Part shown: piece after piece, positions 576 to 50,681 of the stretch
How positions within the stretch are numbered: position 1 is the stretch's first letter
Layout: every line of letters begins with the position of its first letter
Translations under genes and position numbers: made by a program
Notes under the pieces: model-generated
Told to the model about the DNA's origin: nothing
The model's database searches: none
The model's input: the letters and a program-made list of their open reading frames with translations, nothing else
Assembly (NCBI GenBank): GCA_001513105.1
Contig: LFSH01000082.1
Coordinates: 29,595-93,594 of the forward strand
Source: Clostridiales bacterium DTU070
Lineage (GTDB): Bacteria; Bacillota; Clostridia; DSM-8532
Length of the DNA stretch: 64,000 nucleotides
Direction of reading: 5' to 3'

Positions 576-720
576 GGAACCTCTCCCTTCCTTCTGTGCT
601 ATTGTCCTTTCAACGTTTGAAATGAGCCTGCTAATCCTTGCTTTCTCGTTAAGGAGTTTTTTATGATGGCTTTTCGGATAGTCTATACCTTTACGTAACG
701 CTAATGTCAACACTTTTAAA

Positions 721-756
721 AAAATACCTCTGCCCCAATCCGGCAAAGGTATTTTT
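721..756 (-). terminator. Terminator after the GH10 gene
   Basis: The arms AAAATACCTCTGCC and GGCAAAGGTATTTTT pair with one mismatch around a 7-nt loop. On the minus strand the hairpin is followed by a T-run. It sits just after the GH10 stop and also covers the 5' end of the extended TipAS frame, which argues that the upstream part of that frame is not translated. Confidence 0.7.
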
Positions 757-767
757 ACTTACTAACT

Positions 768-2252
768 CTACGATCCCATTATTCTTTTCTTCAGCGCCTT
801 CAGCCTGAAATACATTTCACGGGGTATAAAATCCTCAAACAGGAACGGGGATGTCTTCATAAAGCCGGGATCCTGGAAATCCCACCATGTGATGGCTTTG
901 ATCTCGAGCCTTGCTGCAGCAATTGTATAAAACTGCTCAACCCAGTCTGCCTGGACATGCTCATCCCATGGCGCATGCCAGATTCCTTTCGTTAATCCTA
1001 TTTGCGACTGGGGATCGGCTGATTCTACATTATCCCGCTCTCCGCGTGCAGGACCGCTTGGAACTCCCATTTCCGTTATATGAACAGGCTTGCCGAACCT
1101 GGCATACTCGTTCAGAAGAAGGCTTACAGCCACCATGTCCCTTGCCGGAAAGTAAAGCTGTACACCGACTGCGTCAAAATCAATACCTTTCTCCATGGCC
1201 CGTTCAAAGAAAGCCAGCGGGGACACGGGCTGTTCAAAAACGGGACCGTAACAGACGAACTTCCCTGCAACATACTCCGCGAAAGGCAGGCAAACATTAA
1301 TTATCGATGTGGCTTCGGGGTTGCTTTCACGAACGGTTTCGCAGCATATACGCGCCAGGTCCATGAGTTCGTCCTGGGTGAAATCAAAACAGTTCGCCCA
1401 GTCGTGAGGCTCGTTTATTGAATCCCACACATCTATCCTGCCGCGGTACCTTGTAACGGTCTTCCTGATATATTCCTGTGCAAACCGTGATAATTCCTTA
1501 TAGCTTCTTCCGTACATCCATTTTGGGTTAACTCCGCCATGCCCGAACCACAACGGGTGTCCTTTCGCCTTTATCCCGTTCGATTCGCACCATTCCAGGA
1601 TTTCGTCACGGCGGGCATAGTCAAATATCCCCTCCTCGGGTACCACCTGGTAATAATAAAAGGGTAATGTCGCAAAGTTGAAAAGTTCTGTAAAATATTT
1701 CGAATGAAGATTGTCACCCGAATATTTAAACGCGTTGCAGCCAAGCAGGAGATCCGGCCTGGGACTTGACTCAGTTTTTGCACGGGAGGTTTCAAACAGC
1801 GCAGCCTCGGCTGCAAAAATTGCATGGGAAAGGGCTTTCAGTAGGCAGTAATCCCGCTCCGTGCCTTTTTCGGACAATTCCTTGTATTCATACGCGGCAT
1901 CGAGGTGCCCCCTCGCATAAACAGATAGCTCAAAGCCTTTTCCAATCCTTTCAGCCTCATAGATATACGTTTTCAGCGCTTCGGAAACAAAATCAACAGT
2001 ATCGTCCGTATAGCCCTGTCCCTCGTTGTGCGCCATAACCCAAATGTTCCCGTAAAGCGGAATATTCAACCTTGCATGAAGCATATACGGGCTTTTTGTA
2101 ACTTTAAGCTCAACTGTTCCGTCGGGCATTATGCGGCTTTCCCGGATATCGGGTTCAAAGTGAAGATCGCTTGCATAGAGTGTATTAAGCAGGTACTCCG
2201 GAACAGGTTCTCCGTTTGTTCCCGTGATCCTGACCCTGATAAGTTTTTCCAT
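768..2252 (-). CDS. Intracellular GH10 endo-beta-1,4-xylanase
   Basis: This is a glycoside hydrolase family 10 enzyme cleaving beta-1,4-xylosidic bonds with retention. The acid/base glutamate is in DSINEPHDW (about E281) and the nucleophile in HITEMGVPSG (about E394). The TIM-barrel core covers roughly residues 160-490, preceded by a domain of about 150 residues that I do not recognise, possibly a beta-rich accessory module. No signal peptide is present (it starts MEKLIRVRIT), so it should act in the cytoplasm on imported xylo-oligosaccharides. An AGGAG lies upstream of the ATG. It lies 72 nt downstream of proS on the same strand and ends at a strong terminator. It probably works with the GH43 enzyme and UxuA found elsewhere in the window. 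Confidence 0.9.
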   Translation of the reverse strand: MEKLIRVRITGTNGEPVPEYLLNTLYASDLHFEPDIRESRIMPDGTVELKVTKSPYMLHARLNIPLYGNIWVMAHNEGQGYTDDTVDFVSEALKTYIYEAERIGKGFELSVYARGHLDAAYEYKELSEKGTERDYCLLKALSHAIFAAEAALFETSRAKTESSPRPDLLLGCNAFKYSGDNLHSKYFTELFNFATLPFYYYQVVPEEGIFDYARRDEILEWCESNGIKAKGHPLWFGHGGVNPKWMYGRSYKELSRFAQEYIRKTVTRYRGRIDVWDSINEPHDWANCFDFTQDELMDLARICCETVRESNPEATSIINVCLPFAEYVAGKFVCYGPVFEQPVSPLAFFERAMEKGIDFDAVGVQLYFPARDMVAVSLLLNEYARFGKPVHITEMGVPSGPARGERDNVESADPQSQIGLTKGIWHAPWDEHVQADWVEQFYTIAAARLEIKAITWWDFQDPGFMKTSPFLFEDFIPREMYFRLKALKKRIMGS

Positions 2253-2324
2253 TGTATAATCAGCTCCTCTCAGCTTCTATTCTACCCTTGAACCATGTTC
2301 CCTTTCAATCGCGGTTTGCCTTTT

Positions 2325-4022
2325 TTATTCAACCAGTAATTCCCTGACCCTGCTTTCCACGTGTTCAACCGGTACTGTCTCTCTTATTTTTTTATCGCGG
2401 GTGACAATTTCAACCTCACCATTTTCAACATTTCGTTTACTCACTATAATCCTTACAGGCACTCCCAAAAGATCAGCATCGGCAAACTGAATGCCTGCAG
2501 CAACCTCCCTGTTGTCAAAAATAACTTCAAAGCTCCTGTTCAGCCTGTCATACAAATTCTGTCCGACCCTGTTTACCTCTTCAATACTTCCGTTCAGCAT
2601 GCAGATATGAACCTGCCACGGTGCAACCGCCTTCGGCCAGACAGGCCCGAATTCATCATGGTGTGATTCAATGATGCAGGCGATAAGCCTTCCTATGCCA
2701 ATGCCGTAGCAGCCCATTACGGGATGTTTCCTTTCCCCGTCCTTATCTATATATGTCATGTTCATGCTTTCGGTATACTTTGTATCAAGCTGGAATATAT
2801 TCCCGACTTCAATTCCCCTATTAAGGGTCAGCCTGCCCCCGCAATGAACGCATGAATCATTTTCGCTTACCTTTGCAACATCAGCAAACACGGCATCCTT
2901 AATGTCTCTTTCAATACTTACGCCTCTCAGGTGATAGTCAACCCTGTTTGCACCGCAGACGGTATTTCTTTCACCCTTAAGGGACAGATCAAAAAGTATG
3001 TCAACCTTGCTTCTGTCAAGGCCAACGGCCCCGATAAAACCAAATTGCAAATCGGTTTCATCGTAAGCCGTAAAGGGTTTAATGCCGGATTTGACCAGTT
3101 TCCTCAGTTTTGCCTCGCTTACCTGCAGGTCACCGCGTATGAAAACAACAAGCGGTTTTGGAGAGTTTTCAACCGAGAAAACGGTTGCTTTCATGGTTTT
3201 ACCTGCAGGTATGTTCAAATACCCGGCAAGGGAGTCTATATCCTTTATGCCGGGCGTATACACCTCTTCAAGGGGCTGTTCCGTGTCACTGCCGGATGAT
3301 ATTTTCGACACGGCCACCTCGATATTTGCCCTGTAGCCGCAGCTTTCACACAGCACAATTGTATCTTCCCCGGCATCGGTCAGCAGCATAAACTCATGGG
3401 CAACATCACCGCCCATCATACCCGTGTCCGAGCGTACCGATATCACCTCCGGAAGGCCCACTCTCTGAAAAATCCTGTGATATGCTTCCAAAACCCTGTT
3501 GTAGAACCGGTTAAGGTCTTCTTGCGACGTATGGAAGGAATATGCGTCTTTCATGATAAACTCTCTGACACGGATTAGGCCGCCCCTGGACCTGGGTTCA
3601 TCCCTGATTTTTGTTTGTATCTGGTATATCATGAAAGGGTATTTCGTATATGACAGGGCTTCGTTCCTTGCCAGGTGAACGGCTGCCTCTTCATGGGTCA
3701 TGCCAAGGACCATGTCATTGCCTGTCCGATCCTGGAAACGCACCATTTCACTGCCTATACTGAAATACCGACCTGACTCTTTCAGCAGATCAGCAGGCAA
3801 AGCAACCGGGAACAGGACTTCCTGTCCGCCTATCCGGTCCATCTCCTCGCGTATTACGTTCTCAATCTTTGAAGCAATTCGCTTTGCCGGAGGAAGCAGG
3901 GAATATATTCCGTTTGAAACCCGGCGAATATAGCCGCCCCGTACAAGATAAACATGACTTGTAAGGACAGCGTCACCGGGTTTCTGCTTCATTCTTTCTC
4001 CGAGCAAATCCCTGATCAGCAT
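2325..4022 (-). CDS. proS: Prolyl-tRNA synthetase, bacterial type with editing insertion
   Basis: This enzyme charges tRNA-Pro with proline in the cytoplasm. Class II motifs are visible: motif 2 region RDEPRSRGGLIRVREF and motif 3 GCYGIGIGRLIACIIE. Between them is the YbaK-like editing insertion (about residues 240-390). A C-terminal anticodon-binding domain starts near PWQVHICMLN. The ORF track begins at 4121, but I chose ATG 4022 (MLIRDLLGERMKQKPGDA) because this is the normal family start and AAAGGA precedes it. The result is 565 residues, usual for the family. No T-box specifier or antiterminator is visible upstream, although many clostridial synthetase genes have one. Confidence 0.95.
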   Translation of the reverse strand: MLIRDLLGERMKQKPGDAVLTSHVYLVRGGYIRRVSNGIYSLLPPAKRIASKIENVIREEMDRIGGQEVLFPVALPADLLKESGRYFSIGSEMVRFQDRTGNDMVLGMTHEEAAVHLARNEALSYTKYPFMIYQIQTKIRDEPRSRGGLIRVREFIMKDAYSFHTSQEDLNRFYNRVLEAYHRIFQRVGLPEVISVRSDTGMMGGDVAHEFMLLTDAGEDTIVLCESCGYRANIEVAVSKISSGSDTEQPLEEVYTPGIKDIDSLAGYLNIPAGKTMKATVFSVENSPKPLVVFIRGDLQVSEAKLRKLVKSGIKPFTAYDETDLQFGFIGAVGLDRSKVDILFDLSLKGERNTVCGANRVDYHLRGVSIERDIKDAVFADVAKVSENDSCVHCGGRLTLNRGIEVGNIFQLDTKYTESMNMTYIDKDGERKHPVMGCYGIGIGRLIACIIESHHDEFGPVWPKAVAPWQVHICMLNGSIEEVNRVGQNLYDRLNRSFEVIFDNREVAAGIQFADADLLGVPVRIIVSKRNVENGEVEIVTRDKKIRETVPVEHVESRVRELLVE

Positions 4023-4298
4023 AAGCACCAATCCTTTCAAACCGTAATTACACTGCATGAAAACAATAGATGCATGAATATAAATTAAATAAATTTTATG
4101 TAAAAATAAAAGAAAGTACAAGCAATATTATTATTTTAACAGAAAATAAAAACATGCCGGATTATGCGGTGATTGATTTTGGACAGGCATTGCCCCTATA
4201 ATTTTTTCATGCCTTTTAATGGCTTTTATTTCAATGATATTGCATAATATCAATTATTTGTATGACTTGCTGATTTGTCAATGGGATTGAGGAAGAAT

Positions 4299-4969
4299 AT
4301 GGCTTATATTTGCATTGACTTTGATAAGGGGGTTCCGCGTCTTTCCTATACCGGCTGTTCAAGATGTACAAGCCTGATAGGAATCAGCCTGTCCCAGACA
4401 AAAAACAGGGGATGCTGTTACTACTTCCCGAAGTTTTACCCGTGGAAATCCAAAGAATGTGCCACTCTGAAGAAGGAACGGCATTGCTTTACAGCATTGT
4501 CAGCATGCCCAATACCGTTATATATGACGATCATATTCTTGTTAAAGGAAGTTATGACATTATACTTCACGACAAAATGATGAGGGAAGGGCTTGTGCCT
4601 GTGGACGGAAATGTTACCGATACATCGGTTTTTTTTAAAACATGCCCCTTTGTCCGTTCGGGTTCGGGCTGCACCCTTCCGCCGCGGTACAGATCATACG
4701 TCTGTAATTTCTTTCTTTGCCGTGAAATCCTTGAAAACCCGGAGTATAAGGATAAACTTGAGCCGTATGTAAGGGAACGGAACAATTATGTCCGTTTTCT
4801 TGAATGGGAAAACAACCAGCTGTTTACAGCAATGAATGAGGAAGGTCTCTCATTCAGAAAAAACCTTGACGGTGCAATTGAATTTCTTAAAAATCTTGAG
4901 ATAAACCAATACGATTTCCCGCTTCTTGAGCCCGTTGTTATACCTGACAATCATTCAATGGGCGCATGA
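4299..4969 (+). pseudogene. Cys-rich conserved hypothetical protein with a frameshift
   Basis: Two overlapping frames make one protein. The frame starting at ATG 4299 (MAYICIDFDKG, preceded by GAGGAAGAAT) gives a Cys-rich N-terminus with CSRC and GCCYYFPKF. The frame ending at 4969 continues with VEIQRM, CPFVRSGSGCTLPPRYRSY and CNFFLC. Together they resemble an uncharacterised clostridial family of about 220 residues with conserved cysteines, possibly metal or Fe-S ligands. The switch falls at the T4 run 4434-4437, where one extra T would join the frames as KFLPVEIQRM. This is either a real one-base deletion or a sequence error. No function is assigned. Confidence 0.65.
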
Positions 4970-5077
4970 TATCCCGTACCAGGTTCACAAACTCTAAATA
5001 TAATTCCTGTAAACTGTGTTATAATTAAGTAGATGCCGGTATGGCATATTATCAACTTTCTGCGGGAGTTGGAGTTT

Positions 5078-5953
5078 GTGAAGGGTGTCCGCTTAAAAAT
5101 CAAAAAGGCCGTAATATTGACACTGGTTACTGACATTATTCAGACAGCTGCTTTGACAGCCCTGCTTCTGTACCTGTTTTTATCACCGAAATCGTTCCTT
5201 TCCCAATCCGATACTGGAGAAAGGATATTTATTGCATCCGTAACAGTCGTATCCTTTGCGGCGATTTTTTTCTCAATGCGCGATATATATCATATTATTG
5301 ACATCAATCTGCAGAACAGTATGATCAGGGAAGCCCTGAGCTCGGTTGAGAACCTGAACAATTCACTGAGAGCCCAGAGGCACGATTTCCTTAACCATCT
5401 TCAGGTTGTTTACGGCCTGATAGAACTGGATGAATATTATGAAGCAAAAAACTATATCAATAAAGTATATAAAGATATACAGTCGGTCAGCCGTGTGCTG
5501 AAAACAGCCAATCCCGCCGTTAATGCCCTGCTGCAGGCCAAGCTGATGACCTGCGAGGAAAACCGGATAAACGCCGAGATTCTTGTTTCATCCCGCTTTG
5601 AGAACATTCCCGTTCCGTCATGGGAATTATGCAGGGTACTTGGAAACCTTACGGACAATGCAATTTCAGAACTCTGCGAAAAACCCGATAACCGTCTTCT
5701 GCAAATCGAATTAAAGGAAGATCCCGGATCATTTATTGCCGTTGTTAAGGACAACGGTCGGGGAATTCCCGACAGCATCAGGGACAGGATATTTGAACCC
5801 GGGTTCACGACAAAAAAGAACGGTGAAGGCATGGGACTTTCGATAGCAAGGAGAATAATACATAAATACGGCGGAAGGATTGAAGTGAACAGGGATAACT
5901 ACTGGACGGTGTTTACGGTATTTATGCCTAAACAGGAACCGCCTGATGTATGA
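5078..5953 (+). CDS. Sensor histidine kinase, SpoOB/CitA-like
   Basis: This is a membrane-bound kinase with two N-terminal membrane helices (around VILTLVTDIIQTAALTALLL and IFIASVTVVSFAAIFF). The H-box RHDFLNHLQVVYGL is of the SpoOB type, and the C-terminal ATPase domain carries DNAISEL, DNGRGIP and GEGMGLSIARR. No sensor domain of any size separates the helices. The ORF track starts at ATG 5033, but a TATAAT at 5020-5025 would place transcription start at about that codon. I therefore prefer GTG 5078, which has GGGAG upstream, giving 291 residues. The likely partner is the LytTR regulator at 7966, with three genes in between. Confidence 0.85.
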   Translation: MKGVRLKIKKAVILTLVTDIIQTAALTALLLYLFLSPKSFLSQSDTGERIFIASVTVVSFAAIFFSMRDIYHIIDINLQNSMIREALSSVENLNNSLRAQRHDFLNHLQVVYGLIELDEYYEAKNYINKVYKDIQSVSRVLKTANPAVNALLQAKLMTCEENRINAEILVSSRFENIPVPSWELCRVLGNLTDNAISELCEKPDNRLLQIELKEDPGSFIAVVKDNGRGIPDSIRDRIFEPGFTTKKNGEGMGLSIARRIIHKYGGRIEVNRDNYWTVFTVFMPKQEPPDV

Positions 5954-6072
5954 TTTCAGGTAAAAACGACATTTGAACTGCAGAACTGTATTATTTGTCA
6001 GGTTAATCTTCAGTCAGCCGCAGTTAAGAAGTATAATTATAACCAGTAAAGCCGTTAAAAGGAGGTGCTGCT

Positions 6073-6570
6073 GTGGATATTTTCAGTTTCCTGGATGGAA
6101 TACAGATATACCAGGTAATAATACTTCTTCTTGGCATTATCCTGTTAATAATTGAAATGTTTACTCCCGGGTTCGGCGTACCGGGCGGCATGGGCATTAT
6201 TCTTCTGGTCGCCGGTATCATCCTGACGGCTTCAACCCCGTTTGAGGCTCTCGTCATGATAGTAATTCTGCTTATTATTTTGGGTGCGGCGCTTAAAATA
6301 ATCCTGCATTCGGCTGCAAGTGGATGGCTGTCGAAAACCCTTATTCTGAACGATTCATTAACCAAAAGCGCCGGATATATCGGAACAGAGGATCTTGAAT
6401 ACTTTGTAGGCAAAGAGGGAATAACTCTTACTGTTTTAAGGCCTTCAGGCAGCGCAGAATTTGATGGAGTAAAACTTGATGTTGTCAGTGAAGGCGAGTA
6501 CATCCCCAAAAATACAAAAGTGAAAATAACCGAGGTTTCGGGGCGCAGAATTGTGGTAAAACCCGTTTAA
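6073..6570 (+). CDS. NfeD-family membrane protein, short form
   Basis: This 165-residue protein has membrane helices in the first half (IILLLGIILLIIEMF, GIILLVAGIILTA, MIVILLIILGAAL). The C-terminal OB-fold begins near GKEGITLTVLRPSG and ends ITEVSGRRIVVKPV. This is the NfeD1b-type layout without the ClpP-like protease domain of long NfeD proteins. Such proteins act with flotillins in membrane microdomains, and the flotillin gene follows after 83 nt. It starts with GTG behind a near-perfect AAAAGGAGG. Confidence 0.88.
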   Translation: MDIFSFLDGIQIYQVIILLLGIILLIIEMFTPGFGVPGGMGIILLVAGIILTASTPFEALVMIVILLIILGAALKIILHSAASGWLSKTLILNDSLTKSAGYIGTEDLEYFVGKEGITLTVLRPSGSAEFDGVKLDVVSEGEYIPKNTKVKITEVSGRRIVVKPV

Positions 6571-6653
6571 TGCCTTTTTTAAGGTCGGGACGCGCATCTT
6601 TCACCGTACAGGTCTGAAACTTCAAGATAATTAATATAAAGGAGGGTTTCCAA

Positions 6654-7652
6654 ATGTCAGGGAGTTTGGTTGGAATTTTGGTAATAATCATTGCAGTTAT
6701 ATTGTTTTTCTCATTGTTTTTCAGTTTTGTACCCGTTGGATTGTGGATTTCAGCTGCAGCATCCGGGGTAAGGGTTGGTATTTTAACCCTTGTAGGTATG
6801 AGGTTAAGAAGGGTGGTACCGTCAAGGATAGTGAATCCCCTGATTAAAGCAAGGAAAGCCGGGCTTGACGTTACCATCAACCAGCTTGAGGCGCATTACC
6901 TTGCGGGCGGAAATGTAGACAAGGTTGTTAATGCTCTTATTGCCGCCCAGAGAGCAAACATACCTCTCGGCTTTGAAAGAGCGGCGGCGATAGATCTGGC
7001 AGGCAGAGATGTTTTAGAGGCGGTCCAGATGAGTGTTAACCCGAAAGTAATCGAGACACCGAATATAGCATCTATTGCAAAGGACGGTATTGAGCTGATT
7101 GCAAAGGCAAGGGTTACGGTCAGGGCAAACATTGACCGTCTCGTGGGCGGTGCCGGTGAGCAAACCATCATCGCCCGTGTCGGTGAGGGTATTGTTACTA
7201 CCGTAGGTTCATCGGAGTCGCACAAGGAGGTTCTTGAAAACCCCGACCTTATATCCAAAACCGTTCTTGAAAAGGGTCTTGATGCAGGCACCGCGTTTGA
7301 AATTCTTTCTATTGACATAGCCGATATTGATGTGGGCAGAAACATAGGCGCACAGCTCCAGACCGACCAGGCCGAGGCCGACAAGCGCATTGCCCAGGCC
7401 AAGGCTGAGGAAAGAAGGGCAATGGCCGTTGCAAAGGAACAGGAAATGAAGGCCATGGTACAGGAAATGAGAGCCAAAGTTGTTGAAGCAGAGGCAGAGG
7501 TTCCCAGGGCGATGGCAATGGCGCTTCGCGAGGGCAAATTAGGTGTTATGGATTATTACAACATGCAGAACATAATATCCGACACCCAAATGAGGAATTC
7601 AATATCAAGTATGAGCAGGCAGGATAACAATAAACAGCCCGACAAGAAATAA
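6654..7652 (+). CDS. floA: Flotillin-like protein FloA
   Basis: This is a membrane scaffold protein of the FloA (YqfA) family, which organises lipid-raft-like domains in Firmicutes. An N-terminal hydrophobic segment ([20 protein letters not shown]) anchors it. The SPFH/band-7-like region follows ([20 protein letters not shown] onward). A C-terminal Ala/Glu-rich coiled coil ([19 protein letters not shown]) supports oligomerisation. Its 332 residues match the family. The RBS is AAGGAGGG. It lies directly after nfeD, the usual pairing, but here both sit between a histidine kinase and a response regulator, which is unusual. Confidence 0.93.
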
Positions 7653-38557: not shown

Positions 38558-39601
38558 TCAGTCATCTGGCATATCCGTTCCGGTCAGCGCGCCGGCTCCT
38601 TCATCCGGGTTAAGTCTGTCGGGGCCGGCGAGAATGGCCCTGGCTTCGTTCAGTGATTTTTCAAAGATCCTTTTGCAATCATTGATTTTTGTATGATATC
38701 CCGATGTTTTCGTGGTTTTCTGACGTATTACAATGACTTCGGCGTCATTATCCACGGTGTATTTTTTCACCATGTTTTCGGGAACAATCATGTTTCTTGC
38801 GTGCTGATACAGCCCAAATCCGGGTTTTGCGGCTATGACGCAGTAAAAGTATGGATAACTTGCCCCTTCAACCACATTTATATTAATCTGGGCCTGAAGG
38901 CCATAGAAATCGTCGGGCATATTATCGAAAGTGACTGAAAACCTGCAGTCTTTCGGAACACTTTTCCCCGTTTTGTCCTTTGCAAGCATAAGAAAAGGAT
39001 TAAAGGTCTCTCCATCCCTTTTAATGTTCCGGAAAAATGCCTCCATCTGCCTTGTAATGTCTATTTTTATACGAAGATTTCCCTGCTTAAGAATTCTGCG
39101 TATTCCTGAAAACCACAGCGGCAGAACAAGAAACAGTATGTCTGCCGCAAGGATAGCCCCGGTCCGGCGGTAGGTATTGCCGGCATCCAATATCACAGGT
39201 ACTGCATACGTTGCTATGGCCAATAATGCAAACATCAAAGCGCCCGGTGCATTGCTTATATCAAGGATGTCCCTGTCCCATTTTGTCATTCTGTCATCCA
39301 GTTCTTCCACCTGGCGAATCTTATCCATATCAACCCTGGTCCAGTTGCTGTCTATATTGAAGGATACAAGCCTTACACGACTGTCGTAGCCCTTGACCAT
39401 TGTAAGGATTGTTGCACAGATTAGAAAAACAGCTCCCGGCCAGACCCTCAAAGTATAAACCTGGAGCAGGAACCCCGCAATAAGAAGTATTATATACAAC
39501 AGCATCCTGTTCGTATAATTAAGTTTTTTCATCGCATGAAACTTTACAATGTCCTGCTTTTCCGGCGGAGGAAAGCCTGGCAGGCGCAGCCAGTTATTCA
39601 T
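38558..39601 (-). CDS. Membrane protein linked to the radical-SAM cassette
   Basis: This 347-residue protein has two pairs of membrane helices (YIILLIAGFLLQVYTL / GAVFLICATILTMV, and ALMFALLAIATYAVPVIL / AAILAADILFLVLPLWF). A soluble C-terminal half follows (NPFLMLAKDKTGKSVPKDC onward). I do not recognise a family. Its ATG (39601) overlaps the stop of the radical-SAM gene as ATGA, with GGAGAGGAG upstream, so it is the third gene of that operon. It may be a transporter, anchor or receptor for the modified tail protein. ATG 39640 of the track would lie inside the radical-SAM gene. Confidence 0.6.
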   Translation of the reverse strand: MNNWLRLPGFPPPEKQDIVKFHAMKKLNYTNRMLLYIILLIAGFLLQVYTLRVWPGAVFLICATILTMVKGYDSRVRLVSFNIDSNWTRVDMDKIRQVEELDDRMTKWDRDILDISNAPGALMFALLAIATYAVPVILDAGNTYRRTGAILAADILFLVLPLWFSGIRRILKQGNLRIKIDITRQMEAFFRNIKRDGETFNPFLMLAKDKTGKSVPKDCRFSVTFDNMPDDFYGLQAQININVVEGASYPYFYCVIAAKPGFGLYQHARNMIVPENMVKKYTVDNDAEVIVIRQKTTKTSGYHTKINDCKRIFEKSLNEARAILAGPDRLNPDEGAGALTGTDMPDD

Positions 39602-40929
39602 ACAATACTCCTCTCCTTTAAAAGCCCCATTGATTCCCAACCCGGGACAAGCTCTTTACAGCCGTGTACCCGGAAATACAGGGGACATGCTCCCTGGCAG
39701 GCCGCAAAATGCCTGCATTCCCTGCACTCCAATGGTGCTGATTCCTTTGCGCGAATCTGTTTGCAGCGCTGGTTATACCATACCTGCTCGAAACCCTCTG
39801 TTAAAAGGTTTCCAACAGGCTCTGACCAGCTCGAGCAGGGAAGCACATTTCCCTTCGGATCAACCGAAAGCAGTCCTTCACAGGCGCTGCAACCCCTGTT
39901 GCCGAAACCTTCAGCCAGAGGATTGAACAGGCATACCGGGGTTGGAGAATACCACATGAATTTTATTCCCTGCCTTGAAGCCTCAGCTTTAAGCCTTCTT
40001 ACAATGTCTCCTGCTTCCGTGTAACTTACAGTCAAATCGTCATCGTCCCCGCGCCCTGCGGGTATAACGAGGTTGGCTGAAAACCTTTCTGCTCCGATGC
40101 TTTTGCAAAAAGCAGGGTAATCGGTCAGCCTGTCCTTATTCATCCTGCATATGGTGAAATGCGGGTGAACATGAACCCCTGCCTCTTTCAACGCTTTGAA
40201 ACCAGCTACCGAAGCCTCGTGCGAACCGGGAACTCCCGTAATTGCATCATGTTCGTCGGCATAGGCCGATTCAATGCTTACCTGTGCCGATGAAAGACCT
40301 GCACGGGCAAGCTCCCTTGCCTTTGCAGGTTTAACCAGTGTTGCGTTCGTGATAAGGTTGACCCGCATTTTGTTTTGCTTCGACGCGTATTTTATCAGCT
40401 CGGTCAGGTCCTTATACGCCGTCGGCTCTCCTCCAGTAAACGAAACACTGGGAACTTCGGCTTCATACCGGATAATGTCGAGTATTTTTTTGAAGCCCTT
40501 TGTATCCAGCTGTTCCTGGCCTTTTTTCGGTGTACAGTCCCCGTAACAGAACCTGCACTTTATATTGCACGTATATGTCAGTGCCACCTCCGACAGTACC
40601 GGAAGCTGAATATACCCGATGCTGAATTCGGTCCTGTAAACGGCTTCGGTTTGATAATTCTCGCACACCTCGTTGTTCCACAGGCGCGAGAAATCTGTAA
40701 AAAACCTTTCAAGCTGGGCTTCGGTTTCGGGATAATCGGCCCTTACCCTGATAAAATCCTGAACCGAACCGCCGTCCAGGATATGCGCAATAACCCGTGC
40801 CCCTGCAGAATTCAATTTGAAGGCTTCATTCGGCATGCGTATAAGAACATTGTCGCGAAGGCGCATATATACAAAGGGCTTTATACTATGCAGGAAATCG
40901 TCAACCCAGGACAGCTTGCACTTCTTCAT
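39598..40929 (-). CDS. Radical SAM/SPASM maturase with PqqD-like N-terminal domain
   Basis: This 443-residue peptide-modifying radical-SAM enzyme has an N-terminal about 80 residues ([29 protein letters not shown]) that resemble a PqqD/RRE peptide-binding domain. The radical-SAM core has CNIKCRFC (C121, C125, C128) binding the 4Fe-4S cluster, then [11 protein letters not shown]-terminal SPASM domain supplies further Cys ([31 protein letters not shown]). Such enzymes form thioether or carbon crosslinks in RiPP precursors. The gene starts 4 nt inside the end of the (ACHS)n protein gene, so that protein's tail is the obvious substrate. ATG 40929 follows GGAGG. The track's longer N-terminus is the repeat read out of frame. 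Confidence 0.9.
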
Positions 40930-42659
40930 CTTGCACCTCCGCTGACACATGCCGAGTGGCAGGCTGAATGACAGGCCGAATGGCAGGCCGAGTGGCAGGC
41001 TGAATGGCATGCGGAGTGACATGCAGAATGGCATGCATCATGGCAGGCCGAGTGGCAGGCAAAACGCCCTGTGTTTAAATCCAGGAAGGATTTATCGCTG
41101 ATATTGTCGGGATTGGCAGGAATGGATGCCTCGTACCTTTTATAATGGTTCCTGTATGATCTGTGATGTATATTATGGCGGTAATAATACCAGTGAACCC
41201 ATGTGTTTACATAATACTCCTCATCATAGATATTGTCCTCGTAAAACCAGTCTTCCTTGTTCTTCGGACCGGCACTGTCTTCAAGAATACTCTCGGTCAT
41301 CCTGTCCTGGTAAAACTTGCGGGTTGCTTCAATATCACAGTCATAGGTCTTATTCCGTACATTATCGGCAAGTACCTGCAGAATTCTCTCCACGTCCTTT
41401 TCATCCAGCTCTCCGTCGGCTGCGGCTTCATACATCATGCGTTCATATTCGTTCAGTTCCGACGACATCGGTATTTTGTCCGTCCTTCGTACACGAAGGG
41501 GATCGGCGGATAATTCCTCAAGGTATCCCTGGGCCACCAGTTTTGATAGAATGACCGAAAGAATTGTTTTATACGGCACCCCCATAAAAAGGGCAGCCTC
41601 AAATTCATCCAGATTGTCAGCAATAAGGCCTTCTTTCCTGAAAGAAGCTATTTCAATCTTAGGCGGCTCCCAGTCGGTTCTTGCCCACTGCACCTGGTCC
41701 AGTGTCTGATGGGCTTTTATCATTGACCTGTGCTTTTTGCCGACTGCGAGAAGAGTAACCAGAAACAAGGCACAAAGCGCATACATCAAAGCCGACCTGT
41801 CCGCGGATTCGTCGTATCGCCTGTAACCTGTTCTTCCGGGCATGACCGGCGGCGTGTTACCATCAGGGTAACTTACCTTACCTGTATTATCATCAAATGA
41901 GGCGCTCGAACCCGGCATTTCATTGAAAACATTTTCCGAAATGTACTGCTGGATTCGGAAATGATACTCTTTGCCCGGGTTATCCTTATGAAGCATGACC
42001 TGCACCCTGTTTACCGATTCAAGGTTTATTACACGGTAGTCAATGAGATATTCCTCGTTCATCCATTTTTCGGTGTAAAAATCATTCTCAGCAAGAAACC
42101 TCTCTATTTCCTCCCTGCCTGATGCTTCACCGTTGTATTCCAGCGGGTAGTTTATTGTAACGGTGTAATGGTCCATCGGCTCGTCCCACTTAACGGGAGC
42201 CCAGTTAAACACGACAAGTTTTTTCCCGTTATCCGAGGTTGTCCGGTTCAGATACCCTGCCTGAGCAAGGTCGGCTGCGAACCGGAATTTGTAAGTAAGG
42301 TGCTCCCCGCCGAGGCGCTGATTATTGGCATTAATTATATCGTATTTGCCTCCGCCGAGGTATACAATGTCTATTTTATGGGATGCATTGTCATCGGTTA
42401 TGACACAGGCCTCGCCGGTATAAAAAAGAGGTTCAAGCCTGTCAAAGCCTTCCATCGTAAACGCAAGCATTGTTTTGCCGGGTACCAGGTTATACCTCAC
42501 CGTATACGAAACAATGGCTTTACCGTCGGGAAACAGTATGACATCTGTTTCAACAAATCCAAGATGTGCAATTTCAGAAGCATAAATATGAGTTGGCTGA
42601 ATCAGTAAGACAAATAATATCAACCAACCCAATAAACATTTCAAAAACCGTCTTTTCAT
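40926..42659 (-). CDS. DUF2207-like membrane protein with C-terminal (ACHS)n tail
   Basis: This 577-residue protein has a signal peptide ([20 protein letters not shown], ending YASE). An extracytoplasmic beta-rich domain of about 260 residues resembles DUF2207 ([20 protein letters not shown]). One membrane helix follows ([18 protein letters not shown], about 290-307), then a cytoplasmic part of about 265 residues with a His/Tyr-rich segment. The last 44 residues are ACHS, ACHD, seven ACHS, ACVS and then GGAR. Topology puts the tail in the cytoplasm, where the overlapping radical-SAM gene product can reach it. I chose ATG 42659 for its GAAGGGG site and signal peptide. It is probably a RiPP-like substrate or metal-binding protein. 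Function unknown. Confidence 0.8.
40941..41060 (-). repeat. Ten 12-bp repeats encoding ACHS-type tetrapeptides
   Basis: Ten in-frame 12-bp units encode ACHS x1, ACHD, ACHS x7 and ACVS, directly followed by GGAR and the stop. Units differ at synonymous positions for every residue: TGC/TGT, CAC/CAT, GCC/GCA, and TCG/TCA/TCC/TCT. The amino-acid pattern is therefore kept while the DNA has drifted. Cysteines are spaced every four residues. Confidence 0.95.
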
Positions 42660-42783
42660 ATTTCCCCTTCTACTATCAGCAAGGATGCAGGTTTTCTTTA
42701 TTTTTAACACCGAAAAATACCTGTGTTTTTAGTATAGAAGATCTTAATATATATGTCAAATAATAACACGGCATTAGCGGTTT

Positions 42784-45646: not shown

Positions 45647-45687
45647 TAGACATAATTTAGCCCCGGATGTTATAATATAACGTTATA
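45647..45687 (+). promoter_or_regulatory. Promoter and palindromic operator of the restriction gene
   Basis: TAGACA (45647-45652), an 18-nt spacer and TATAAT (45671-45676) form a plausible sigma-A promoter. The perfect 12-bp palindrome TATAACGTTATA (45676-45687) covers the expected transcription start. TATAACGT is also directly repeated. A repressor binding here would block the endonuclease gene. No C-protein gene is visible. Confidence 0.5.
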
Positions 45688-45736
45688 ACGTATGTTCTAC
45701 GTCAATATAGATATTTAATACAGGGGGGACATAAAT

Positions 45737-46690
45737 ATGCCGAAGGATTTTTTCCTGCTGCAGAATTATGTTAATAAAGCGTTTGAAAGCCATTCATATA
45801 TTGACCACGAGAAAATATCCAGAAAGTTTATGAATATGCTGAGTGAGGATTTTGACGACGAAAGGTTCGAAAATCTTCTAAAATTCGCAGGCTACATTCC
45901 TGATTTATACCCCAATGATTCAAGCGAAGAAGTGTTATACTCCAAACTTGTTGAGAGCCTGGTCTGTGAATGGTCAAGGCGCATGGGATATTCGGCTGAA
46001 CTGATAAAACAGAAATCAAGCATGGAAGATGTGAAGATAATCATCGATAACAAGGTGATTGTGTGCGACGCCAAGAGTTTCAGGCTTGGAAGAAGCCAGC
46101 AGGCGCCGAATGCGAAAGACTTCCTTAAGCTGGAGGACGTGCGGAAATGGATGGACAGGTATAAAAATGCAATCGGCGGGCTCGTAACCTATCCCGATAC
46201 CCACGAATGGAAGTCAGGCAGCGATATATACCAGTACTGCAGTACGAAAGAGGTACCCACAGTTATGCTTCCATACAAATACCTTGCGTATATTCTCAAT
46301 AACAGGGACAGGTTTAACCCGTCCGACCTGCTTGAATTATGGGACTATGATGAAATCTTCCCCGGCAAGCTGCCAAAGAACATGGAGGGCGGCAATAAGG
46401 CAGCTTACTGGAAAAGAATCAATAAGGCAATACTTAGAATCACCCGGACAGATGAAAGGTATTTCTCAGGGTATATGCAAAAAGCCGATGAGCTTATCAG
46501 GGAGTGCATTGCCGCAAACCTTGAAATGCTTGAAAATTTAAGAAAGGACATTATCAGGGATATTAAGAAAGCAATCGCCGCTGAAAACGATATTGAGAAA
46601 CTGAAAAAGGATATCATAGAATACAGGACTAAAACCGAGACAGATTCATACGACAAGCTTATAAAAAGGATAAAAAACTTTCGCCTGTGA
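45737..46690 (+). CDS. HindIII-like type II restriction endonuclease
   Basis: This 317-residue protein resembles R.HindIII. The PD-(D/E)XK core motif is IIDNKVIVCDAKSFRLGR, with D111 and K113, matching the ADAKSFRLSR stretch of HindIII. The following KDFLKLEDVRKW also aligns with KDFKVKALSEW. The N-terminal helical part and a long C-terminal coiled coil (about 245-317) match its overall length of about 300. HindIII cuts AAGCTT. Whether this enzyme shares the specificity is inferred. RBS GGGGGG precedes the ATG. It converges with the methyltransferase gene across a shared terminator. Confidence 0.85.
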   Translation: MPKDFFLLQNYVNKAFESHSYIDHEKISRKFMNMLSEDFDDERFENLLKFAGYIPDLYPNDSSEEVLYSKLVESLVCEWSRRMGYSAELIKQKSSMEDVKIIIDNKVIVCDAKSFRLGRSQQAPNAKDFLKLEDVRKWMDRYKNAIGGLVTYPDTHEWKSGSDIYQYCSTKEVPTVMLPYKYLAYILNNRDRFNPSDLLELWDYDEIFPGKLPKNMEGGNKAAYWKRINKAILRITRTDERYFSGYMQKADELIRECIAANLEMLENLRKDIIRDIKKAIAAENDIEKLKKDIIEYRTKTETDSYDKLIKRIKNFRL

Positions 46691-46700
46691 ACAGTCCGAA

Positions 46701-46732
46701 AAAGCCGGCATAAACCAGTTTATGCCGGCTTT
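46701..46732. terminator. Bidirectional terminator between endonuclease and methyltransferase
   Basis: A perfect 14-bp stem, AAAGCCGGCATAAA with TTTATGCCGGCTTT, lies between the two convergent stop codons, with A- and T-rich flanks. It separates the two halves of the restriction system. Confidence 0.85.
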
Positions 46733-46736
46733 GTTG

Positions 46737-48899
46737 TCATAGCGAGTCCCTTATTTTTATATTGAATGAAGGAAAATAGTCCATTATCAGCTTTGAAAGC
46801 CGTATTATGGCTTCTTTATCGTCTTTCACCCCGTTTACCTTTTTTGCGTTCGCAATCATTCCAACCGAATAAGCAAGCGTTGCCATTGCAGCGTCGGATT
46901 CGTTCCAGCCCGATTTGTTCATCAGCTGCATTCCGAATACATCAATTATGTTTATTGTTTTTTCCATTATATCCCGGAAGCAGATTTCCTTCTTATCTTC
47001 GGCTGTTTTTCTCGCAACAAATGCCATACATGTATTAACCGCCTCGGACAAAACGGCTCTCGGCCGCCCTTTTCTTTCAATACTCAACGGTTGTATGCTT
47101 GTTATAACAAAAGGTGATTTCCTGTACGCATGGACAACGGCATCCCACCCGTTGACAGAACTATGGGAATAGATAAATGAAAACACTCCGTTATCCTTTA
47201 ATACCCTTGCTGCTTCGCAGAAAGCCTTCTCCAGTTCATTACAGTATTTTTCGTGGGCTTTCTCAGCGCTCTCGTTTCTGACAGATGAAGCAACCAGTTC
47301 ATATTCATAATCAGTTTTATCACTTCCGAACAGTTCAGGTTCTATAACTTCCAGTACGCCTTTCTTCCATGCATAAAAGAAATCCGCAAGTATCGAATAG
47401 TAGATATTGTCATAATATGGGGGATCGGTAACTATTGCATCGAAATATTTATCCTCGAAGGGCAGTTCCTGCGCCGGTGCTTTTTGTACCGAAACCTTTC
47501 CCTTGCTGCATTCAAAGGTTCTTACTCCCTTAATTATCCTGTCAAGTTTGTCCCAAAGGTTCGCAGGCCCTTTAAGCACCTGGTCGGTTTCGGCATAGTC
47601 CCACAGCATCGCAACACCCGGGCCGCAAAAGGCCCTTCCGACCTGTTCGTTCTGAGGTATCCACATCGAAAGCCTGCAGTTCCAGTCCACCACCTGGTCA
47701 ATCAGGCTTGACAATACACCCGTTGCAAACCTGGCCATGGCGGGCTCATATTTGGAAACCAGCCTTTTATATTCATCCCTCAGTATCCTGATTAAATACA
47801 GCAAAACCAGGCGCTGGCGGCGGTTAAGGAAATCCGCATGTGTTTCTATCCCGTAAAGTGCCGGATTAACAATCCCGGACCACCTGGGAAGCTCCGATGC
47901 CGGAAGTTTAAAGTCCATTGAATCCAGCAATTCCTTTTCCTTTGCTCCCATTTCAGGGATACCTGGGACAGCTTTCTCTTCCACCGTATAGAAACTTTTT
48001 CCCACTCCCCTTTTGCCTGAAATGACAGCCACGAGTGTATCTTCACAATTCCTTATGCTGACTTTTTCGTGTCTCCTGCCGCATTTCGGGCAGACTGCAT
48101 GACCTGCATGATTTATCCAGTTGGACGGGAAGGTATAATCAGGACCAACCTCACGGATATCAATTTTCTGCCCTTCATCTTCATTTACCAGGACAAACGA
48201 CAGGCGTTTTCCCTTTTTCTTCGTAAGCCACGGACGCTTAGCCAGGTAGAACCTGTAACCGCATTCTTCGCACTGCATGGAATATGTCCAGAGATATCCG
48301 AATACGTCTTCGCCGTATTTCTCCCTTAACGGAAACAGCCATCTGGTTTCTTCCTTAAGCTCATTCAGTATTTTCCTTCCCGAGTCTTCAATAATCTTCC
48401 CGGCCTCATTAATGTCCATCCCGTCGGAGTACACCATATTGCATTTTTGAATGAATACCGACATTTCATTCGCGTCTATCGAATATGTATCCAGGCCCAT
48501 TTTCTTTGCTTCAAATGGTATTGTCCCGCCTCCGCCGAACATATCAAGAACTTTAGGCGGTTCACAATACCCTTCCTTTATCATTTCAGCCGCCTCCGCA
48601 ATGGCATCGGCATCATTGTTTACCGCCAGCCTGGCCATCAGGTCCACTGCCTTTAACGAAGTATTCCTGCAAACAGATGCAAAAACCAGCGCCCGCATCG
48701 CACTGTGTGGCCTTCTTGCCCACCAGACGTGAATTGTATGGGATGTTTCACCCCTTCTGTATCTTTCGTTATAACCGGCCACAGAAGCCTCGTAATGAAG
48801 CATTCCTGCATCAATCAGCCGTTTTTCAGCACCGGAAGGAATATTCATTATTTGGGGACTTGCAAATACCGTATCCTCCGGTTTTGAATTATTTATCAT
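46737..48899 (-). CDS. DUF1156-type DNA methyltransferase
   Basis: This 720-residue protein has an N-terminal DUF1156-like region (about 20-110, HVWWARRPHSAMRALVFAS). A SAM-binding motif I (VLDMFGGGGTIPFEAKKMG) and the catalytic motif IV (VTDPPYYDNIYYS) of N6-adenine or N4-cytosine methyltransferases follow. Two CxxC pairs (QCEECG, VCPKCG) suggest a zinc ribbon in the middle. It is more than twice the size of M.HindIII, so it is an unusual partner for a HindIII-like nuclease. Its ATG overlaps the stop of the 88-residue gene as TAATG. It probably protects the host recognition site. Confidence 0.85.
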   Translation of the reverse strand: MINNSKPEDTVFASPQIMNIPSGAEKRLIDAGMLHYEASVAGYNERYRRGETSHTIHVWWARRPHSAMRALVFASVCRNTSLKAVDLMARLAVNNDADAIAEAAEMIKEGYCEPPKVLDMFGGGGTIPFEAKKMGLDTYSIDANEMSVFIQKCNMVYSDGMDINEAGKIIEDSGRKILNELKEETRWLFPLREKYGEDVFGYLWTYSMQCEECGYRFYLAKRPWLTKKKGKRLSFVLVNEDEGQKIDIREVGPDYTFPSNWINHAGHAVCPKCGRRHEKVSIRNCEDTLVAVISGKRGVGKSFYTVEEKAVPGIPEMGAKEKELLDSMDFKLPASELPRWSGIVNPALYGIETHADFLNRRQRLVLLYLIRILRDEYKRLVSKYEPAMARFATGVLSSLIDQVVDWNCRLSMWIPQNEQVGRAFCGPGVAMLWDYAETDQVLKGPANLWDKLDRIIKGVRTFECSKGKVSVQKAPAQELPFEDKYFDAIVTDPPYYDNIYYSILADFFYAWKKGVLEVIEPELFGSDKTDYEYELVASSVRNESAEKAHEKYCNELEKAFCEAARVLKDNGVFSFIYSHSSVNGWDAVVHAYRKSPFVITSIQPLSIERKGRPRAVLSEAVNTCMAFVARKTAEDKKEICFRDIMEKTINIIDVFGMQLMNKSGWNESDAAMATLAYSVGMIANAKKVNGVKDDKEAIIRLSKLIMDYFPSFNIKIRDSL

Positions 48900-49165
48900 T
48901 ATTCACACTCCACTTTCAGTTTATTTTTATCTTCCAGTTTCAGCACATAAAACTTCGCATCTTCCGGTAATGCCCTTGTAAATTTATATCCCAGGGAAAT
49001 CCTGTAATACTTCCGGTCAATTTTCTTCTCACCGAGGTAAAAGCCGTTAAGGTAAACCTTAACGGTTGTCAGCCCGTCAAGCATCTTCTCAACCTCCGGA
49101 TTTTTGCTCCTGTTCCAGATAATATAGCCAAACCGTCTTGCACTTTTTGTTATTGGCAGTACCAT
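48899..49165 (-). CDS. Small protein coupled to the methyltransferase
   Basis: This 88-residue basic protein begins MVLPITKSARRFGYIIWNRS and ends in a Lys/Glu-rich tail. It lacks Cys motifs, a membrane helix and an obvious HTH. A strong GGGAGG precedes its ATG, and its stop overlaps the methyltransferase ATG by one base. It is therefore likely an accessory subunit or regulator of the modification enzyme. Its promoter holds two AAGCTT sites. I do not recognise the family. Confidence 0.7.
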   Translation of the reverse strand: MVLPITKSARRFGYIIWNRSKNPEVEKMLDGLTTVKVYLNGFYLGEKKIDRKYYRISLGYKFTRALPEDAKFYVLKLEDKNKLKVECE

Positions 49166-49187: not shown

Positions 49188-49218
49188 ATTATAACAACGA
49201 AAGCTTTAATTCAAGCTT
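49188..49218 (-). promoter_or_regulatory. Promoter of the methyltransferase operon with two AAGCTT sites
   Basis: On the minus strand TATAAT (49188-49193) and a TTGAAT (49209-49214, 15-nt spacer) form a plausible promoter 23 nt upstream of the 88-residue gene. AAGCTT occurs at 49201-49206 in the spacer and at 49213-49218 over the -35 element. If the linked system recognises AAGCTT, methylation of these sites could control the operon. Confidence 0.5.
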
Positions 49219-49556
49219 TTGCTGTTAAGATAAAATCAAGCACCCTAACGATTTCATGATATTATCTGCGAAACCATCATCTTTACGCATGGATACGGCT
49301 CTGACCGCTTTAGCTTACTGCTGTACAACAGCCTGTTGTTTCTGCAGAAATTTTATGTTTTATGATGATTTTTGAAAAATAGAACATGTAAACTCTTCCC
49401 TACAATAAATATCATGGGTAAAAAATCGAAAAAATTACCCACGTTTTTATTACGTGGGTAGTTGTTACCCATTTGCTTCCTTTGTTACACTTTAAGGTAA
49501 CAACTCATATATCCGTTATGAATAATTTTACGAGTCACCCGTATAAAAACCTGGTT
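49219..49556. other. Gap between the methyltransferase promoter and fic
   Basis: No gene is called here. The stretch contains one copy of the 61-bp element at 49412-49472 and a further inverted pair, GTTGTTACC (49461-49469) with GGTAACAAC (49496-49504). On the minus strand just beyond the element, the sequence weakly resembles the fic promoter (AGGGAAGAGTTTACAT against AGGAAAAGATTGCAT). This suggests an old duplication of the fic regulatory region. A short minus-strand frame ending near 49227 (RKDDGFADNIMKSLGC) may be a gene remnant. Confidence 0.35.
49412..49472. repeat. 61-bp inverted-repeat element, copy A
   Basis: This 61-bp copy matches the one at 50686-50746 at 60 of 61 positions. It contains GGGTAA...TTACCC and the perfect dyad TACCCACGT-TTTTATT-ACGTGGGTA, so it can bind a dimeric protein or form hairpins. 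It lies after the fic stop and some 240 nt upstream of the methyltransferase operon. Confidence 0.85.
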
Positions 49557-50630
49557 TTATCTTTCCAAACCGGCTTGCTTAACAACTTCGAATAAACGCT
49601 TATTCAGAAAAATTCTTTCCTTACCGATTTTTTGAGATATTAAAAATCCTTTTTCTACAAGCGATGATAAATAGTTTGACGCGGTCTTCCTTGTAACGTT
49701 AAGCCCTTTTTCAATATATGCAATTTTGGTATAAAATTCATAGAAGAGCAGGTCTACAAGTTCCCTTGAATATATTTGAGGTAATTTATTTCGAATGTCT
49801 TCCGAGGTTTTCTCCAGGACATCCCTGATTTTCTTTACAAGCAGTAAAGTCTCCTCCGCAGTCTGTTCTATGCCCTCAAGAATAAACAGTATCCATTCCT
49901 CCCAGTTGCCTTTTGTCCGTACTTCCTGCAACAGCCTGTAATATGCCGTTTTATTGCGTATTATATACTTGCTCAGGTAAAGAATTGGACTATCCAGTAA
50001 GTCCTTCAGGATAAGGTACAATACATTAATAATTCTTCCTGTTCTTCCGTTGCCATCATAAAAAGGGTGTATTGCCTCAAACTGATAATGTATGACTGCC
50101 AGCTTAATGAGAGGGTCAACATTGTCATAATCTTCATTTATATACTTCTCGAGGTTATCCATTAAGGTTAATATTTCCTTTTCTCCGCTTGGAGGAGTGT
50201 ATATCACTTCACCCGTTGCTTCATTTCTGAGTACAGTAACCGGAAGTTTTCTGATTCCTGCACGGTTTTTAACAATTAATTGCTGGATTTCTATAACCAT
50301 ATTAGTTGTAAAAAACTGTTTTTCCTTCACCAGTTCATAACCATGCCAGAGTGCAGTCCTGTAACTTACAACTTCTTTGGCTGCCGGATTACTGTAATTT
50401 TCCTGGGACATCGCTTTAAACAATTCATCATGTGTAGTTATAATATTCTCAATTTCAGAACTGTCCTTGGCTTCATTAATAGTTACAGCATTTATAAGAA
50501 TATTTTTATTCGGTATCATGCTCGCATATCCTTTGAATTCTGCCAGTGCTCTATGTGCCCTTGCAAGCTGTTTTAATACCCTTATGGTTTCAAGTTCTGC
50601 ATCCGGAGGTAAAAGTTTTACATCAGCCAT
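49557..50630 (-). CDS. Fic-family AMPylating protein with self-inhibitory helix
   Basis: This 357-residue Fic protein has the catalytic motif HPFYDGNGRTGR at 188-199, intact, with His and both Arg. The N-terminal inhibitory helix has the (S/T)xxxE(G/N) signature in AKDSSEIENI (S57, E61, N62), so it is a class II enzyme that controls itself. The C-terminal about 70 residues form a winged helix (LNVTRKTASNYLSSLVEKGF), which may bind DNA. It would transfer AMP to a target protein. I chose ATG 50630 because a promoter at 50653-50681 excludes the track start at 50681. It sits between the two 61-bp elements. Confidence 0.92.
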   Translation of the reverse strand: MADVKLLPPDAELETIRVLKQLARAHRALAEFKGYASMIPNKNILINAVTINEAKDSSEIENIITTHDELFKAMSQENYSNPAAKEVVSYRTALWHGYELVKEKQFFTTNMVIEIQQLIVKNRAGIRKLPVTVLRNEATGEVIYTPPSGEKEILTLMDNLEKYINEDYDNVDPLIKLAVIHYQFEAIHPFYDGNGRTGRIINVLYLILKDLLDSPILYLSKYIIRNKTAYYRLLQEVRTKGNWEEWILFILEGIEQTAEETLLLVKKIRDVLEKTSEDIRNKLPQIYSRELVDLLFYEFYTKIAYIEKGLNVTRKTASNYLSSLVEKGFLISQKIGKERIFLNKRLFEVVKQAGLER

Positions 50631-50652
50631 ACTAATCACCCCATATAAGCAA

Positions 50653-50681
50653 ATTATATATGCAATCTTTTCCTGCATCAA
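50653..50681 (-). promoter_or_regulatory. fic promoter
   Basis: On the minus strand TTGATG (50676-50681), exactly 17 nt, then TATAAT (50653-50658). The predicted transcript starts near 50646, 16 nt before ATG 50630. The 61-bp element copy B ends 4 nt upstream of the -35 box. Confidence 0.7.

Follow-up and report, generated by a model that had tools for sequence, protein, structure and literature searches.

A conserved pair of AAGCTT sites in the promoter of a DUF1156 methyltransferase operon as a probable methylation sensor of a HindIII-family restriction-modification system

Introduction

The presence of a restriction-modification system's own recognition sites in the promoter of its methyltransferase gene is a known but rarely described means of control (PMC12707154, PMC3978073, PMC4824078). 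In CfrBI, a single copy of its site, CCWWGG, overlaps the -35 hexamer of the methyltransferase promoter, and methylation represses the methyltransferase gene (PMC3978073, PMC12707154). LlaDII and AhdI are listed as systems in which promoter methylation affects only the methyltransferase (PMC12707154). In LlaJI, two own recognition sites are located in the promoter, and M1 represses its own operon (PMC1459862, PMC3978073). HindIII, EcoVIII and LlaCI share the target AAGCTT, on which their methyltransferases act (PMC5974420).

The locus described here is located in a 64,000-nucleotide stretch of the genome of Clostridiales bacterium DTU070 (hereafter the window), and comprises a HindIII-family endonuclease gene, R, and a convergent operon of a small protein gene, S, and a methyltransferase gene, M, with two AAGCTT sites in the operon promoter. 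It resembles CfrBI in the overlap between one of its own recognition sites and the -35 from which its methyltransferase is expressed. However, CfrBI has one site rather than two at a fixed 12-bp spacing, and its genes are divergent, with overlapping promoters and reciprocal activation of R, whereas those of the window are convergent; the window system also differs in its presumed methylated base and in the co-transcribed S. With LlaDII and AhdI it would share control of the methyltransferase gene only, their enzymes being unrelated to those of the window. LlaJI is alike in having two own sites in the promoter and a B3 domain in LlaJI.R1 (PMC12707154), but it has m5C methyltransferases and an McrBC-like nuclease, and its B3 fold belongs to the nuclease while here such a fold is predicted in the free-standing protein S. 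HindIII, EcoVIII, LlaCI and Csp231I share the PF09518 endonuclease and, almost certainly, the target AAGCTT with the window system, and LlaCI and Csp231I also the convergent arrangement of R and M. Unlike the window system, all four have beta-class methyltransferases of about 300 aa and lack S; in addition, no AAGCTT was present in the loci checked on the LlaCI plasmid and an EcoVIII-like plasmid, and Csp231I uses a C protein (PMC4824078).

Results

The R gene (45737-46690, plus strand) encodes a 317-aa type II restriction endonuclease of the HindIII family. The protein matches the profile PF09518 (RE_HindIII) over positions 1-284 of 285 (E=5.9e-76, 255.9 bits against a cut-off of 25.3) and HindIII in the PDB (E=2.8e-8), and carries the conserved catalytic/recognition segment DAKSFRLxR...NxKDF, which was aligned with HindIII, LlaCI and the loci L002 and L003. 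Its identity is 55% with the L006 endonuclease and 44% with R.LlaCI, the HindIII-family endonuclease encoded on the Lactococcus plasmid pAW153 (the LlaCI plasmid); both of these genes are convergent to a methyltransferase gene of the M.HindIII type. A candidate promoter of R, TAGACA-18-TATAAT, is located at 45647-45676 on the plus strand, and AAGCTT is absent at or near it in the window. Just 3' of its -10 lies a perfect palindrome, ACGTTATAACGT (45671-45700), a possible operator of R. A third AAGCTT, at 46655 in the 3' end of R, was dropped from consideration because homologous R genes contain no such site. R and M, which converge, are separated by a stem-loop (46699-46736; -22.3 kcal/mol, z -6.25) that is likely to be a bidirectional terminator.

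The M gene (46737-48899, minus strand) codes for a 720-aa DNA methyltransferase with N6_N4_Mtase and DUF1156 domains (Pfam), in which motif I is DMFGGGGT and motif IV is DPPY, along with a Zn-ribbon-like feature. The PADLOC profile MTase_II (PDLC03233) covers nearly all of the protein (E=6e-207). Together with S (48899-49165, minus strand), an 88-aa protein with a predicted B3-like DNA-binding fold whose gene comes first, M forms a single two-gene operon, the stop codon of S overlapping the start of M (TAATG). With 720 aa, M is not one of the beta-class methyltransferases of about 300 aa that are found in AAGCTT systems with the M.HindIII type. No M.LlaCI-like methyltransferase gene was found in the window genome, and M is therefore the likely protector of the system. 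The combination of M with a HindIII-family endonuclease recurs in genome G669, on the contigs L068 and L069 and in the genus of G605, and we infer that M methylates AAGCTT. DUF1156 homologues of M on cyanobacterial plasmids adjoin helicase or DUF499 genes and were set aside as belonging to a different kind of system.

Two other loci of the window may be mentioned. A gene for a SoFic-like Fic/DOC protein (49557-50681, minus strand) immediately precedes the S-M promoter and is read in the same direction. At 39598-42710, a Radical-SAM/SPASM gene overlaps the end of an ORF with about ten C-terminal ACHS repeats, which correspond to a 12-bp tandem repeat (40951-41060); this ORF could be a modified-peptide substrate.

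The original prediction assumed that a given hexamer occurs about once per 4 kb, but AAGCTT is far scarcer in this genome, with 244 copies in 2.89 Mb, or one per 11.8 kb (about 0.08/kb). In the window, 8 copies were observed against 22.5 expected, and in a 428-kb genome sample AAGCTT was the most depleted of all hexamers (35 observed against 113 expected). The congeners G024, G025 and G026, in which the R gene is absent, contain 0.52, 0.56 and 0.42 copies per kb, respectively, making the hexamer 5-7 times rarer in the window genome. The second carrier genome, G669, is 3-fold depleted, with 0.08/kb against 0.25/kb in two congeners. This lineage-specific depletion in both of the carrier genomes checked gives strong indirect support for AAGCTT specificity. 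Combined with the family and homology of R, it upholds the proviso of the original prediction that the system recognises this hexamer, which on these sequence comparisons it almost certainly does. Elsewhere, contig L049 (G000:C10) contains a Wadjet operon consisting of JetA, a JetB-like ORF, the SMC-like JetC and JetD (667-7369). The first 12 kb of this contig hold 13 AAGCTT, more than 10 times the genome average, as if recently acquired.

The S-M promoter, which transcribes the minus strand, has the sequence AAAAGCTTGAATTAAAGCTT-TCGTTGT-TATAAT; after it come GGGAGG and the start codon of S, an ATG at 49165. The -10 hexamer TATAAT (49188-49193) is part of an extended -10 in the window (TGtTATAAT), and the -35 hexamer is TTGAAT (49209-49214). 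The two AAGCTT sites were confirmed at 49201-49206 (site 2, promoter-proximal) and 49213-49218 (site 1, distal), 12 bp apart from start to start, and their predicted placement in the spacer and over the -35 is borne out by the promoter sequence: site 2 lies wholly inside the spacer between the -10 and the -35, and the last two bases of site 1 are the first two (TT) of the -35. Only three pairs of AAGCTT starting no more than 36 bp apart exist in the whole genome, and that of the S-M promoter is the tightest. The spacer between -35 and -10 is 15 bp in the window against 17 bp in three homologous operons, and because 15 bp is non-ideal, the -35 assignment is less certain here than in the homologues.

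Three further, independent S-M-R operons were found, one (L045) in G669, which belongs to a different family of the same phylum, and two (L068 and L069) on IMG/VR contigs; with the window this makes four. A contig scan of genomes with weak peptide patterns yielded one locus. In all three further operons, R is convergent, M is 57-61% and S 46-56% identical to the window proteins. Upstream of S in each there is a pair of AAGCTT sites exactly 12 bp apart (1389/1401 in L045, 4663/4675 in L068 and 714/726 in L069), and in all four operons the position of the pair in the promoter is identical, both sites being invariant. The pair is the sole AAGCTT in 8.9 kb of L045 and in 12.1 kb of L068. In the ungapped alignment of the four operons, the 20-nt element AAAAGCTTGAAWTVAAGCTT (49201-49220, minus strand) has a mean pairwise identity of 93%, as against 26-28%, equal to random, in the 100 nt just upstream, and inside the element the hexamers are 100% and the linker 78% identical. 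With the hexamers invariant, the linker variable and the upstream DNA randomised, the alignment therefore shows selection on the hexamers themselves. Thus, the conservation upstream of homologous operons that the original prediction had proposed as a check was found, with the same spacing, in three further operons. In L045, an HTH_3 gene encoding a C (controller) protein-like product is situated directly before R (4875-5108, minus strand); it is absent from this position in the window.

The idea that the pair is common to all HindIII-family systems was rejected, since other such loci are free of AAGCTT. The hexamer was not present in the loci read on the LlaCI plasmid, the EcoVIII-like plasmid and L006, or in the operons of G605, G777 and G490. 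In the loci L042, L043 and L044, from one genus, a HindIII-family R and an M sharing 35% identity with that of the window are arranged in tandem; these loci lack S and contain no AAGCTT in 8-9 kb, and the genomes G605 and G490 have few AAGCTT. A separate observation concerns an R-then-M tandem HindIII system of G040, where an AAGCTT (L047:5273, or L003:1516) within the end of R precedes the start of M by about 60 bp; this may be a separate instance of a site close to a methyltransferase promoter.

Discussion

Own recognition sites lie within the core promoter of M and are conserved in all four homologous operons at the same spacing. Given the AAGCTT specificity and the conserved pair, the locus is best read as having a methyltransferase promoter that responds to methylation: by analogy it would resemble the promoters of CfrBI and LlaDII, but with tandem sites of presumed adenine methylation. 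We consider it fairly likely, on this analogy, that the pair is a conserved methylation sensor exerting negative feedback on S-M, and the system probably gauges how far its own sites are methylated and adjusts its expression accordingly. As long as the sites are unmethylated, in a naive cell or where M is scarce, the S-M promoter would be active and M would be made. When both sites have been methylated by M, the modified bases would hamper use of the promoter and transcription of S-M would fall. This negative feedback would set the level of M, which is expected to surge on entry into a naive cell and then to be damped. We infer that methylation changes S-M transcription, and the precedents suggest that its effect is repressive. 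If M, like M.HindIII, modifies the first A of AAGCTT, an N6-methyladenine of the template strand would face the second position of the -35. As the two sites point to almost the same side of the helix, the response would be steeper.

The original prediction extended the methylation switch to the nuclease as well as the methyltransferase. The methyltransferase part stands as the best reading, in view of the recognition of AAGCTT, the conservation of the pair and the precedents. Direct control of R is not supported, because R is served by a separate promoter at the opposite end of the two convergent units, in whose vicinity AAGCTT is absent in the window; R would be affected only indirectly. The methylation-sensor reading draws on four operons, two of them from the IMG/VR contigs, and LlaCI, the EcoVIII-like plasmids, L006 and the S-less M homologues cope without such sites. 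Moreover, the real reader of the pair could be S, a possible DNA-binding protein that the original prediction did not foresee.

AlphaFold2 models of S have pLDDT values of 87-92 (92 for S of the window). Their top Foldseek matches in the PDB are VRN1, R.NgoAVII, LlaJI.R1, BfiI, LEC2 and At1g16640, all of them B3 domains. The probabilities reach 0.97, but the best E-value is only 0.026 and none is below 0.001, so that the resemblance of the models to a B3 DNA-binding domain is suggestive only. Searches with Pfam and profiles assigned S to no sequence family, and tblastn against plasmids and phages gave nothing useful; S has no Pfam HTH match and does not correspond to a C protein, that is, a small HTH controller with C-boxes. 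The main rival to direct methylation sensing is that S represses or activates the operon by binding the AAGCTT pair as a stand-alone protein of B3 fold. S would then probably be methylation-sensitive, and methylation would be read by S and not directly by RNA polymerase. We regard this as a possible but rather unlikely arrangement. It agrees with the position of S as the opening gene of the operon, with its co-occurrence with the pair in four of four operons, with the missing AAGCTT around the S-less homologues of G605, G777 and G490, with the B3 domains as best matches of the models, and with the crystallisation of R.NgoAVII, one of these matches, with cognate DNA through its B3 domain. Against it stand the weak Foldseek E-values and the lack of a sequence family; the S-less set is a single G+C-rich genus, which makes the co-occurrence thin, and S might instead help M to recognise its target as a specificity partner. 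It is likewise only a tentative suggestion, based on the models, that S represents a new kind of restriction-modification controller sensing the system's own epigenetic mark, unlike HTH C proteins and HTH-tailed methyltransferases.

An improbable reading is that M, or an M-S complex, binds the promoter sites as substrate or product and sterically blocks RNA polymerase, in which case methylation would act only by altering how tightly M binds. The sites are presumed targets of M and overlap the promoter, and EcoRII, MspI, SsoII and others are known examples of methyltransferases that repress themselves by binding (PMC3978073), but SsoII-type enzymes contact a separate operator by means of a helix-turn-helix at their N terminus (PMC3978073), and no such domain was detected in M by Pfam.

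When the 150 bp preceding S are dinucleotide-shuffled, the 12-bp pair arises with P of about 8e-5 for the window and 2-8e-5 across the four operons. Among 255 genomes of the class, the pattern AAGCTTGANNTNAAGCTT with a -10 has a single occurrence, that in the window; 2.9 million viral contigs contain it three times, twice in S-M operons. The DNA-pattern matches L070 and L073 on viral contigs were discarded as chance, restriction-modification genes being absent there. Although AAGCTT can arise randomly in AT-rich promoters, chance or drift leaving two functionless hexamers in the promoter is effectively refuted by the conservation of the pair, given the shuffle P for each promoter, the exact spacing in four of four operons, the randomised flanks and the avoidance of AAGCTT in the checked carrier genomes (that of the window and G669).

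These findings bear on how mobile restriction-modification systems balance protector and killer, for which promoter methylation has been described as a logical yet rarely used control (PMC12707154). In the system described here, a HindIII-type nuclease is paired with a DUF1156 methyltransferase and a small protein with a predicted DNA-binding fold. Phylogenetic footprinting picks out a 20-bp self-targeting element of fixed geometry in an otherwise AAGCTT-avoiding genome, and the methylation thermostat that this element may constitute thereby becomes directly testable with a short synthetic promoter.
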